A stretch of DNA of 37,358 bases from NCBI GenBank assembly GCA_003130875.1, contig QEXY01000158.1:1-37358 (forward strand). The letters run 5' to 3'. This document shows positions 24,623 through 29,511 of this stretch, in pieces. A model generated the notes under the pieces. It worked only from the letters and a program-made list of their open reading frames with translations. It did no database searches and had not been told where the DNA came from. The stretch comes from Ardenticatenia bacterium. GTDB taxonomy: Bacteria; Chloroflexota; Anaerolineae; 4572-78; NAK82. A program made the translations under genes and the position numbers. The stretch's first letter is position 1, and each line of letters begins with the position of its first letter.

Positions 24623-25645
24623 ATGACATACGACTCAGAACGCTATGCGCGTCAAATCCTCTTTGCGGGCATCGGACAGGCAGGACAGGAAAAGTTGGCT
24701 CGTGCCCATGTGCTCTTAGTGGGCTGCGGCGCCGATGGCAGTGTCATTGCGGACCGGCTGGTGCGTGCCGGCGTGGGGCGATTGACCATCATCGACCGTG
24801 ACTTTGTCGAGCTGAACAATTTACAACGTCAAGCGCTCTTTGACGAGGCGGATGCCGCGGCGCGTCTGCCCAAAGCGGTGGCGGCGGAACGCAAACTCGC
24901 TTGCATTAATTCCACCGTGACAGTGCGCGGCGTGGTCACTGACCTCAATCCCGAAAATGCCGAGGAATTGCTCGGAGATGCCGATCTGGTGATGGATGGC
25001 ACCGACAATTTCGCGACGCGCTATCTGATCAACGATGTGTGCATCAAGCATCGCATCCCGTGGATTTATTGCGGTGTGGTGGCCAGCTACGGGATGACGA
25101 TGACCATCCTGCCCCACCAGACGCCGTGTTTGCGTTGTGTCTTCCCTGAAGCACCTATGCCGGGCAGCACGCCCACTTGCGATACAGTGGGCATCGTCAA
25201 TCCAATCGTATCCGTCGTAGCGGGGATCGCGGCAGCAGAGGGCATCAAGTATCTGGTCGGCACCGGTGCCATCAACCGCGGCATCATCTACGTGGACGTG
25301 TGGCATAACACCTACGACATGCTTGAGAGCGGTGACCCGTGTCCCGATTGTCCGGCGTGTGGACAGGGACGTTTCGAGTATTTGGAAGCGTCTCCCATCC
25401 AAGCGAGCAGCTTATGCGGTCGCGACGCGGTGCAGGTGCGGTTATCGCAACCACGGTTAGATTTGACATCGCTGGCCGAGCGTCTGCGCGCGTCGGGGCT
25501 GCCGGTGACTGAGAACGCGTATCTGATTCACTTTCAGGCCGAGGGATGTGAAATCACTCTGTTCCACGACGGGCGGGCGATTATCAAAGGCACCGACGAC
25601 CCAGCTACAGCGCGCTCGCTGTGTTCGCGCTATATTGGCGTATGA
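24623..25645 (+). CDS. ThiF/MoeB-type adenylyltransferase (E1-like)
   Basis: A 340-residue enzyme that adenylates the C-terminal glycine of a ubiquitin-like sulfur carrier such as ThiS or MoaD. The nucleotide loop is G34-C-G-A-D-G39, the Arg-finger segment is NNLQRQ, and MDGTDNFATRYLIND is the Mg-binding stretch. Zinc cysteines are C169/C172 (CLRC) and C243/C246 (CPDCPAC); the candidate catalytic cysteine is C186 in PTCDTVGIVNP. The C-terminal part (LCGRDAVQVRL, then FHDGRAIIKGTDD and ARSLCSRYIG) is like that of Bacillus ThiF. No thiS, thiG or moa gene is nearby, so thiamine versus molybdopterin use is open. lysC follows 32 bases on. Confidence 0.88.
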   Translation: MTYDSERYARQILFAGIGQAGQEKLARAHVLLVGCGADGSVIADRLVRAGVGRLTIIDRDFVELNNLQRQALFDEADAAARLPKAVAAERKLACINSTVTVRGVVTDLNPENAEELLGDADLVMDGTDNFATRYLINDVCIKHRIPWIYCGVVASYGMTMTILPHQTPCLRCVFPEAPMPGSTPTCDTVGIVNPIVSVVAGIAAAEGIKYLVGTGAINRGIIYVDVWHNTYDMLESGDPCPDCPACGQGRFEYLEASPIQASSLCGRDAVQVRLSQPRLDLTSLAERLRASGLPVTENAYLIHFQAEGCEITLFHDGRAIIKGTDDPATARSLCSRYIGV

Positions 25646-25677
25646 CATCTAGGCGTAAAGAAAGGGGAGCTGATCAT

Positions 25678-27135
25678 ATGCTGGTTGTTATGAAATTCGG
25701 GGGCACTTCGGTGGGCAGTGTGGCCGCTTTGGAGAAAGTGGTTGACATTGTGACACGCAGCCTTCGGCGTGGCGACCAGGTGGCAGTGGTCGTATCGGCG
25801 ATGAGCGGAGTAACAGACATGTTGCTTAAAGGGGCTCGCCAATCTGTGCAGGGTGACACCGAGACGGCACACCAGCTCCATCAAGAGATGCTGCGACGCC
25901 ACCGGGAGGTCCTCGACGTCTTTCTGAGCGACCCCGATGTGCATGACGGAGTATTGAAGGCCATCCAGTCGCTCCTCGACGAGTTTGACTCCTTGTGCCA
26001 CAGCATCAAGGTGCTGGGTGAGTTGACCCCACGCGCCTTGGATGTCATTGCCGGAATGGGTGAACGGATGAGCGTGCGACAGGTGGCGGCTATTCTGGAG
26101 AGCCGGGGTATCGCGGCACGCGCGATGGAGGCCACGCAGCTCATCGTCACCGACAACAACTTCGGAGCGGCCAGTCCTCTGATGCCCCAGACGACACGTC
26201 GTTGTCAGGAGGTTCTGGTCCCCTTGCTCGATGCTGGGATCGTGCCGGTGATCACAGGGTTCATCGGCGCTACGGAGGAGGGCATTGTCACCACATTGGG
26301 GCGCGGAGGAAGCGATTACTCGGCTACCATCCTGGGTTGTGCTATCGCCGCGGACGAGGTGTGGATCTGGACCGATGTGAACGGAGTGATGACCGCCGAC
26401 CCCCGCATCGTGCCCGATGCACGGACCATCCCCTATCTCTCCTACATAGAGGTGGGTGAGATGGCCTATTTCGGAGCCAAAGTATTGCACCCCCAAGCTA
26501 TCCGTCCTGCCAAGCGCGCCGGCATACCAGTGCGCATCCTCAATACATTTGAACCGGAGCACCCCGGCACCCTCATTACACGTGAATCGAACGGAGGTGA
26601 CAAGCGAGTGAAAGCGGTAACAGCCATCAGGGGATTGAGCTTGATCGTGATCGAAGGCTCCGGCATGCTCGGTGTGCCCGGCGTCGCGGCGCGCGCATTC
26701 GGGGCAGTGGCCAAGACAGGCACGAATGTGCTGATGATCAGTCAGTCCTCATCCGAACAAAGCATCTGCTTTGTAGTGCCCACCCACGATGCCCCACGTG
26801 TCCTGGCTGCTCTGCGTGAAGAGATGGAACGCGAGTTGGAGCGCCAGGATATTGAGAATATCACAGCACAAGACAATATCGTCATCCTGACAGTGGTGGG
26901 TGCTGGGATGCGAGGTACGCCCGGTATCGCCTCCAAGGTGTTTGGCGCTTTAGGACGAGAGAAGATCAACGTGATTGCCATTGCTCAAGGGTCGAGCGAG
27001 TATAATATCTCCATAGTTGTAGATCAACGCGATGCCGATAACGCCGTGCGCGCGCTGCATGCGGAGTTCGGTTTGGGTACAAACACGGTTGGCGCAGCGA
27101 CAGCGGCTTCTTCTTCCGCGATGCAAAACATTTGA
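25678..27135 (+). CDS. lysC: Aspartate kinase
   Basis: A 485-residue aspartokinase that phosphorylates L-aspartate at the start of the Lys, Thr and Met pathways. The kinase domain begins VMKFGGTSVGSVAALEKV and contains TTLGRGGSDYSATILG and the WTDVNGVMTADPRIV loop. Two ACT domains follow (about residues 330-480: GLSLIVIEGSGMLGVPGVAA and VVGAGMRGTPGIASKVFGAL), so feedback inhibition by an end-product amino acid is expected. Spacing and sequence of the ACT region resemble the ThrA/AK-III side of the family; there is no homoserine dehydrogenase domain. The ATG at 25678 has GGGGAG nine bases upstream; an earlier in-frame start inside thiF lacks support. Confidence 0.94.
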   Translation: MLVVMKFGGTSVGSVAALEKVVDIVTRSLRRGDQVAVVVSAMSGVTDMLLKGARQSVQGDTETAHQLHQEMLRRHREVLDVFLSDPDVHDGVLKAIQSLLDEFDSLCHSIKVLGELTPRALDVIAGMGERMSVRQVAAILESRGIAARAMEATQLIVTDNNFGAASPLMPQTTRRCQEVLVPLLDAGIVPVITGFIGATEEGIVTTLGRGGSDYSATILGCAIAADEVWIWTDVNGVMTADPRIVPDARTIPYLSYIEVGEMAYFGAKVLHPQAIRPAKRAGIPVRILNTFEPEHPGTLITRESNGGDKRVKAVTAIRGLSLIVIEGSGMLGVPGVAARAFGAVAKTGTNVLMISQSSSEQSICFVVPTHDAPRVLAALREEMERELERQDIENITAQDNIVILTVVGAGMRGTPGIASKVFGALGREKINVIAIAQGSSEYNISIVVDQRDADNAVRALHAEFGLGTNTVGAATAASSSAMQNI

Positions 27136-27185: not shown

Positions 27186-27250
27186 AAGACAGTCTTGGAA
27201 CAAAATATAACAAAATCTGTCTTGAAGCGGACTGTCACTTGTGGTATAAT
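27186..27250 (+). promoter_or_regulatory. Strong promoter with AT-rich upstream tract and dyads, after lysC
   Basis: TTGAAG (27222-27227), 17 bases, perfect TATAAT (27245-27250), start near 27257. Just upstream lies an A/T tract (AAAATATAACAAAAT, 27202-27216), like the UP elements of stable-RNA promoters. AAGACAGTCTT (27186-27196) is an odd-centred palindrome, and its left part AAGACAG also pairs with CTGTCTT (27217-27223), which touches the -35 box. No open reading frame with a ribosome site follows. Confidence 0.7.
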
Positions 27251-27256
27251 GAAGTC

Positions 27257-27462
27257 AATCAGCAGGATACCGCTCAGAAAAGGGGAGATACTCAATCACA
27301 GCACGAGGAAAGTGCACGAGAGGTCTGGGCTAAAGAAGGCCGGCAGTGAACACCCCTATCGGTGAACGATAGTTTGATCTGAGCGGTCCATTCTGATTAC
27401 CTTAAGTAATTGAATAGCTCTAAAGAAGCGAGCCACGGCCGCGGACGCCGTGGCTCGGCCTT
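27257..27462 (+). ncRNA. Putative structured RNA of unknown class
   Basis: No convincing coding frame is present. The transcript predicted from the promoter at 27222-27250 can fold as follows. An outer stem pairs AATCAG (27257-27262) with CTGATT (27393-27398). The main closing stem pairs ACCGCTCAGA (27269-27278) with TCTGAGCGGT (27378-27387), ten perfect pairs. Inside it AGGGG (27281-27285) pairs with CCCCT (27353-27357), a hairpin GCAC/GTGC lies at 27301-27315, and a 3'-side hairpin CTATCG/CGATAG at 27356-27372 partly competes with the AGGGG stem. A GC-rich hairpin at 27430-27456 would end it, for about 200 nt. The rod-like layout and size are compatible with a 6S-like RNA, but I recognise no family signature (not SRP, tmRNA, RNase P or a known riboswitch). 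Confidence 0.6.
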
Positions 27463-27610: not shown

Positions 27611-27649
27611 TTGACAGACGTCGCCTTATATCGTATAATTGCGATATAA
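27611..27649 (+). promoter_or_regulatory. arsR promoter with palindromic operator over the -10
   Basis: A perfect consensus promoter: TTGACA (27611-27616), 17 bases, TATAAT (27634-27639). TTATATCG (27626-27633) and CGATATAA (27642-27649) form a perfect 8-bp dyad whose 8-base centre contains the -10 box, the layout expected for an ArsR/SmtB operator. Transcription would begin near 27646, only about 10 nt before the arsR ATG, so the message is almost leaderless. Confidence 0.85.
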
Positions 27650-27655
27650 AGCCTT

Positions 27656-28018: not shown

Positions 28019-28089
28019 ACACTTTTTCTTTTTCATCAAAGTGCTTCTCAGTTCAGAAATAAACGGACAGGATGCAAGGAGATGTTCGG

Positions 28090-29511
28090 ATGCCGGATTC
28101 TGTGGTGACAGGGTCTTTCGTCCGTGGCGTCACGGCGTGGAGTAACCCGTATGCCGGTTACCTCAGCGAGGCCATGCGCGAGGCCGCGATCACGCGAGCC
28201 TACTTGCGCCCGGAGATGGTCATCGCCGACATAGGATGTGAAGGTGGATCGATGGCGGCCAGACTGGCATCGTCAATGACGTGGGTGCACGTGATCGAGA
28301 GGGTATCGGCGATGCTGGCAGCAACTCGCTGCAATTTAGCCCGATTCGCCAATGTGTCCTTCCACTGTGCGGACGGGGAGCGGTTGCCACTGGCGGACTG
28401 CTCGATGGATGCGGTCTTCGCCACCATGTATTTGCATCATTGTCGCGATCCGCAGAGGGCCATCTATGAGATGGTGCGCGTCCTCCGGCCGGGTGGTCGC
28501 CTGATGATCATCGAACTGGGCACACGTTCTCACGCGGGGTTACAGCGTAAGGCGGTTGACGAAGTGATGGGCTTTGCAAGGGAGCAGATGCGAATGTGGC
28601 TGCGCGCAGCGGATCTGGTCAATATTCTGGTGCGCTCAATTGATGGCGTGGACACAAGGGAATGTTCCGCACCTGTCGATGTCATCTTGGCGACGGGCAG
28701 CAAACGCATCACCATGCACCAGACTGTGCGGAAACACTATACCACCGCAGTGCTGGACAATTGCGGTTGTGCCGAGGAGACGCCATCTTCATCCAGCTGT
28801 TGCGGTCAAGTATCATCGGATTGTGGATGCTGCGGTGCCAACATCGGAACGCCCGTTGAGGGCAGTGTGCAGTTCATAGTGGACTACAGCCCCGACGAGC
28901 TGGCCGCGTTGCCATCCGATGTAAGGACGGTCGCGTTCGGGTGTGGCAATCCGGTGGCGCTGGCCAACCTGCGCCCTGGTGAGATCGTGCTGGACATCGG
29001 CAGCGGGAGTGGCCTCGATGCACTCTTGGCAGCGCGTCAGGTTGGCCCATCCGGGAAGGTGATCGGCGTGGACATGACACCTGCCATGACCGAACGTGCC
29101 ACTCGCGCGGCTGCTCAGGCAGGTTTTGACAACGTCGAGTTTCGCCACGGCCAGGCGGAGGCCCTGCCGGTGGCCAATGCGTCAGTGGATGTCGTCCTCT
29201 CCAACTGTGTGATCAACCTGTGTGAAGACAAGGGCGCGGTGTTTGCCGAGGCGTTTCGCGTGCTGAAGCCGGGAGGACGCCTGGAGATCAGTGATATGGT
29301 GACAGCCGGTCCGTTACCGCTCGCTTTGCGCTATGATGAGTCCGGATGGTCGAGTTGCATATCAGGAGCACTGCCCGAACAGGAATATCTGGACCTGGTG
29401 GCTGAAGCGGGTTTTGAGGAGATTACATCGCACCGCAGCACCAGTGCGGGTGTTATCGGCGATGTGCCTGTTTACAGCGTCACCATTTCAGCGCGCAAAC
29501 CGGCAAGTTAG
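28090..29511 (+). CDS. arsM: Arsenite methyltransferase with an extra N-terminal methyltransferase domain
   Basis: A 473-residue fusion. Residues about 215-470 are ArsM, which methylates As(III) with S-adenosylmethionine: SAM loop VLDIGSGSGLDALLAA, and the As-binding cysteines C285 (GCGNP), C373 (SNCVINL) and C423 (SSCISGAL). Residues 1-205 are a second class I methyltransferase (motif I IADIGCEGGSMAARLA, then LPLADCSMDAVFATMYLHHC and VLRPGGRLMIIELG). Its end (VMGFAREQMRMWLRAADL) resembles the UbiE-like domain found fused to some ArsR proteins. Between them is a Cys-rich hinge (CGC, CC, CGCC at 225-248) that could bind extra arsenite or metal. Start: ATG 28090 has AAGGAG eight bases upstream; ATG 28072 is less well placed. 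It follows arsR on the same strand. Confidence 0.9.
   Translation: MPDSVVTGSFVRGVTAWSNPYAGYLSEAMREAAITRAYLRPEMVIADIGCEGGSMAARLASSMTWVHVIERVSAMLAATRCNLARFANVSFHCADGERLPLADCSMDAVFATMYLHHCRDPQRAIYEMVRVLRPGGRLMIIELGTRSHAGLQRKAVDEVMGFAREQMRMWLRAADLVNILVRSIDGVDTRECSAPVDVILATGSKRITMHQTVRKHYTTAVLDNCGCAEETPSSSSCCGQVSSDCGCCGANIGTPVEGSVQFIVDYSPDELAALPSDVRTVAFGCGNPVALANLRPGEIVLDIGSGSGLDALLAARQVGPSGKVIGVDMTPAMTERATRAAAQAGFDNVEFRHGQAEALPVANASVDVVLSNCVINLCEDKGAVFAEAFRVLKPGGRLEISDMVTAGPLPLALRYDESGWSSCISGALPEQEYLDLVAEAGFEEITSHRSTSAGVIGDVPVYSVTISARKPAS

Follow-up and report, generated by a model that had tools for sequence, protein, structure and literature searches.

The intergenic region between lysC and arsR

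The window, i.e. the whole stretch of 37,358 nucleotides that was analysed, holds between lysC and a gene for an arsR-family regulator a gap in which an AT-rich tract, a promoter, a sequence enclosed by a closing stem and containing three internal hairpins, and a GC-rich hairpin follow each other in this order. The following features were found:

25621-27135: lysC (encoding aspartokinase), the 5' border of the gap
27200-27221, plus strand: AT-rich upstream tract, a possible UP element (sequence; alignment with G002 and G001)
27222-27250, plus strand: sigma-70-type promoter TTGAAG-N17-TATAAT with TGn before the -10 box (promoter scan, alignment)
27257-27462, plus strand: presumed RNA of about 206 nt, the conserved unit, with its start placed from the -10 box and its end from the terminator-like hairpin
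27257-27262 with 27393-27398, plus strand: outer stem AATCAG / CTGATT
27269-27278 with 27378-27387, plus strand: closing stem P1, present in the minimum free energy (MFE) fold of all three species
Arm P2, variable in length, short in G000 and G002
27301-27315, plus strand: hairpin P3, GCAC-GAGGAAA-GUGC, stem invariant in the three species
27322-27341, plus strand: hairpin P4, GGUCU...AGGCC, with U-G in two species and U-A in the third
27346-27373, plus strand: invariant run of 28 nt, identical in all three species and holding P5
27356-27361 with 27367-27372, plus strand: hairpin P5, within the invariant run
27396-27410, plus strand: small 3' hairpin ATTAC-CUUAA-GUAAU (alignment, RNAalifold)
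27429-27457, plus strand: terminator-like hairpin, GC-rich, 11 bp perfect, 7-nt loop
27656-28018: gene for an arsR-family regulator (Pfam assignment), the 3' border of the gap

Here G000 is the genome of the window, and G001 and G002 are the other two sequenced genomes of the genus, each a separate species (labelled in GenBank, in the order as listed, as the metagenome-assembled genomes of an uncultured Ardenticatenia bacterium (L027) and of Anaerolineae bacterium SKYB15 (L042)).

A preliminary description of the gap, made from the one sequence, had proposed a near-consensus promoter behind an AT-rich tract, and the promoter scan indeed recovered TTGAAG (27222-27227) and TATAAT (27245-27250) with a 17-nt spacer and the TGn extension, preceded by the tract AACAAAATATAACAAAATC (27200-27218). 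The perfect GC-rich hairpin at the 3' side was likewise found, although it measures 11 bp and not the 10 bp claimed. The T run that follows it is short (GGCCTTTCGC) and provides a tail of UUU only, i.e. a weak U tract.

The arsR gene is preceded by a promoter of its own (TTGACA-17-TATAAT, 27611-27639) that matches the sigma-70 consensus perfectly. The region 27611-27652 also carries an overlapping 11-nt inverted repeat (GCCTTATATCG / CGATATAAAGC), and a similar repeat precedes arsR in G002 and G001; it is likely to be the ArsR operator. In the gene after arsR (28072-29511) two stretches match methyltransferase domains, and its product may be a tandem protein resembling arsenite methyltransferase that ArsR controls.

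Conservation and genomic context in the genus

A whole-genome search showed that G001 and G002 carry the unit too, with one copy per genome. The homologue in G002 occupies the same lysC-arsR site (E 5.8e-65), and that in G001 lies at another site (E 1.5e-33), where the whole unit, from promoter to terminator, is convergent with a small 2[4Fe-4S] ferredoxin gene that is followed by rnhB (both genes named from their translated sequence). The arsR homologue of G001 is found elsewhere, beside an ndk-like gene, and has no such RNA upstream. In all three species the alignment shows TTGAAR, the 17-nt spacer and TATAAT to be kept.

The conserved cassette stands out in the global alignment of the window with G002. 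Identity is 37% from the lysC stop codon to the cassette and climbs to 74% at around position 27200; within the cassette it amounts to 74% for the promoter, 77% for the RNA and 82% for the terminator, and then falls to 28% on the 3' side of the terminator. Locally the RNA is 82% identical, more than lysC (62%) and arsR (69%) at their third codon positions, which indicates that the unit is under purifying selection.

The only reading frame common to the window and G001 (...GLKKAxSEHPYR*) has in the window an ATG start that overlaps the -10 box, and in G002 the frame is broken by one-base indels. There is thus no plausible reading frame and the unit is non-coding, in agreement with what had been read from the single sequence.

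The position between lysC and arsR in two of the three species would fit a cis-acting element, either a trailer of lysC or a leader or riboswitch of arsR. Nevertheless, promoter and terminator belong to the unit itself, the perfect-consensus promoter described above serves arsR, and no riboswitch family of Rfam, the lysine riboswitch included, matched. In G001 the neighbours are different genes, the next of which converges with the unit, and this gene order refutes a cis role directly. The occurrence in another neighbourhood shows that the unit is a gene in its own right rather than a leader or trailer, and we consider a cis-acting element highly improbable.

Another observation concerned the terminator hairpin. 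The exact pattern GAGCCACGGC...GCCGTGGCTC occurs at only two sites in the window genome: one belongs to the RNA gene, the other marks the 3' end of the ferredoxin gene. Over 45 bases the second of these copies matches the 3' end of the RNA with 93% identity, in reverse direction. In G001 a single hairpin is common to the RNA gene and the ferredoxin gene, which both converge on it, and G000 and G002 possess a second copy of it at the ferredoxin locus. Besides 27429-27457, copies of the hairpin lie at L002 1501-1544, L006 1501-1534 and L004 1633-1659; the loop is inverted between the ferredoxin copies of G000 and G002. The simplest reading is that the RNA gene once lay opposite the ferredoxin gene with a common terminator, and that it was transferred as a whole into the gap between lysC and arsR in the common ancestor of G000 and G002; a reverse move, from the lysC-arsR gap to the ferredoxin site, is an alternative history.

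The different genomic sites in different species, together with the duplicated hairpin at the ferredoxin locus of G000 and G002, might also be expected if the unit were selectively neutral and a mobile element had left it behind or carried it along. This seems quite improbable to us: there is one copy per genome, flanking direct repeats are absent, no transposase was noticed nearby (on inspection that was not systematic), and the identity of the RNA is above that of the third codon positions.

The unit appears to be restricted to this one genus of the Chloroflexota, within the databases searched. A covariance model (R1) was built from the three copies and gave 184 and 171 bits in the two relatives, scores that are circular. 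Among 396 genomes of the class it detected no member beyond the three congeners. With laxer filters on 25 genomes of the order again only the congeners were found, next to two weak matches (E 0.9 and 6), the first of which was inspected and contained none of the conserved motifs. A motif pattern search of the GTDB species genomes returned 33 contigs, of which only those of two congeners fit the model, and a search of IMG/VR returned four matches, none of which did. A looser motif gave in 150 genomes of the class scattered matches, nearly all with two mismatches and not clearly above chance. Nothing was found by BLASTN against phage and plasmid records, nor by an unfiltered model search of some ferredoxin and arsR loci in other genera of the family.

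Predicted fold of the RNA

The consensus fold consists of a closing stem around several hairpins (P3, P4 and P5) that meet in a multi-branched junction. RNAalifold assigned it -41.6 kcal/mol, versus -23.2 +/- 3.7 kcal/mol for column-shuffled alignments in which the column conservation pattern was preserved (none of 500 as low; z about -5). For single sequences the effect was modest in the window, with a folding z of -1.6 for the core without terminator (-2.3 and -3.9 in the relatives); with the terminator included the z values were -2.9, -3.7 and -5.0.

The closing stem P1 (ACCGCTCAGA / TCTGAGCGGT) had been noted before as a 10-bp stem and is perfect over this length. When the mononucleotides of the transcript minus its terminator were shuffled 2000 times, a perfect inverted repeat as long as P1 arose in only 8 cases. 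All nine scored pairs of P1 hold in each of the three species; three of these pairs show one-sided exchanges. The outer 6-bp stem and the internal hairpins (at 27301-27315, 27322-27341 and 27356-27372) were also present as described. Loss of the stems in relatives, which the preliminary description had named as evidence that would count against it, was not observed: P1, P3, P4 and P5 pair in all three species.

As drawn, 98.8% of the 84 structure cells pair, against 29-39% when the structure is slid along the alignment, a comparison that is biased toward the fold because the structure came from the same three sequences. The one cell that does not pair lies in the outer stem. Across the three sequences no pair was changed on both sides, and five exchanges were one-sided and preserved pairing (of the types U-G/U-A, C-G/U-G, A-U/G-U and G-C/G-U). 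Such exchanges, weak evidence when taken alone, are consistent with the fold but do not constitute covariation.

Some elements vary between the species. Arm P2 has about 36 extra bases in G001 (L004 1445-1497), which form a long hairpin, as a peripheral arm would. The small 3' hairpin has UUGC/GCAA in G001 and is imperfect in G002, and in the window it is mutually exclusive with the outer stem. Within the invariant run a possible H-type pseudoknot would pair CACC (27351-27354) with GGUG (27361-27364), of which the first G competes with the sixth pair of P5.

Relation to known RNA families and RNA-binding regulators

In line with the preliminary description, in which no family motif was recognised, a search of Rfam 15 gave no relevant family for the RNA, neither at the gathering cut-off nor at E up to 5. 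Two weak matches to eukaryotic families overlapped the terminator and were at chance level. Neither ARAGORN nor Rfam detected a tRNA or tmRNA in the window.

It had been suggested that the RNA might be of the 6S type, which binds RNA polymerase. Like 6S RNA (RF00013) it is about 200 nt long, has its own promoter and has a long stem that joins both ends. An ordinary 6S RNA is encoded on another contig of the window genome (G000:C87:36629-36810, 62.1 bits versus a cut-off of 46.4 bits) and also occurs in G001 and in most of the genomes of the order that were tested. In the region itself there was neither a sequence nor a covariance match to RF00013 at E up to 5, and instead of the rod with a single large central bubble that is typical of 6S RNA, the consensus fold shows a multi-branched junction. 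The two RNAs differ in constraint as well: the 6S RNA is 97% identical between G000 and G001, versus 81.5% for the conserved 119 nt of the orphan RNA (about 81-82% identity among congeners), so that the latter is the less constrained. SRP RNA (RF00169) gave no match in the region either and is found elsewhere in all three genomes. Since true 6S and SRP RNAs reside elsewhere, the orphan RNA is neither of them; for a 6S-type role there is hardly any room left, and of the original suggestion the standalone structured RNA stands (it has its own promoter and terminator, is a conserved unit and belongs to no Rfam family), whereas the 6S assignment does not.

Hfq (PF17209) and CsrA (PF02599) were not detected in the three genomes, while control genomes were positive; two of the drafts are 95-96% complete and G002 82%, which leaves small room for misses. 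This argues against an Hfq-dependent antisense RNA, for which also the tail of UUU only is unfavourable, and against a CsrA sponge, for which several GGA loops would be expected and only one AGGA loop (P3) is present. Typical Hfq-dependent small RNAs have a core that is less heavily structured than that of the orphan RNA.

The unit resembles bacterial intergenic small RNA genes in that it combines a promoter, a structured transcript in the range of 100-250 nt and a GC-rich terminator hairpin and stands alone, and differs from them in general by the lack of a detected Hfq in the genomes and by the weak U tract. It also resembles other lineage-restricted candidates in its confinement to a narrow group of Chloroflexota, for instance the Chloroflexi-1 RNA (RF01698), a candidate structured RNA of such a group with unknown function (PMC2864571). 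Unlike that RNA, it has no match in Rfam and occurs in genomes of the Ardenticatenia/Anaerolineae type and not in Chloroflexus.

Possible function of the RNA

The promoter and terminator are kept together as a unit, independent of the neighbouring genes, as in a standalone RNA gene. We are highly confident that the locus contains a real and independent structured RNA gene. It is also probable, with somewhat more reserve, that the gene is autonomous, is restricted to the genus and encodes a structured non-coding RNA of about 200 nt which acts in trans; its transcription, termination and mode of action we infer from the conserved elements. The RNA would be transcribed from the conserved promoter and end at the GC-rich hairpin. 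The closing stem would present a rigid multi-branch core, and a partner, most likely a protein, would bind there to the surface formed by the invariant 28-nt segment and the conserved loops.

Such a protein-binding surface is the mechanism to which we give a weak and tentative preference. The main alternative is a small RNA of the antisense type that works without an Hfq-type chaperone and pairs with target mRNAs through the conserved unpaired linker GUGAACACC and the GAGGAAA and UAAAGAAG loops. A standalone unit with promoter and terminator and an invariant, partly unpaired segment (27346-27373) are what such an RNA might show, but the RNA is strongly folded, has no long conserved unpaired 5' seed and ends in a weak U tract in genomes with no detected Hfq. 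We regard base pairing as possible but rather doubtful, and favour protein binding because most of the conserved bases belong to the compact folded core and Hfq was not detected. A bolder proposal goes beyond this: a new structural family, characterised by a multi-branch core, an invariant segment with a pseudoknot and a dedicated protein partner, would have this RNA as its first member, and the RNA would have taken on a global regulatory role in a lineage without detected Hfq or CsrA; this appears unlikely. As a family the RNA is new (uncatalogued in Rfam 15); as a kind it is ordinary.

The RNA was picked by eye from one sequence and has survived comparison with its relatives. With it, a phylum in which small RNAs are poorly catalogued, and for which a brief search of the literature yielded no more than an older survey, gains a well-delimited orphan RNA family. 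If expressed, the RNA would offer a defined target of 200 nt for studying RNA regulation in bacteria in which Hfq and CsrA are undetected.
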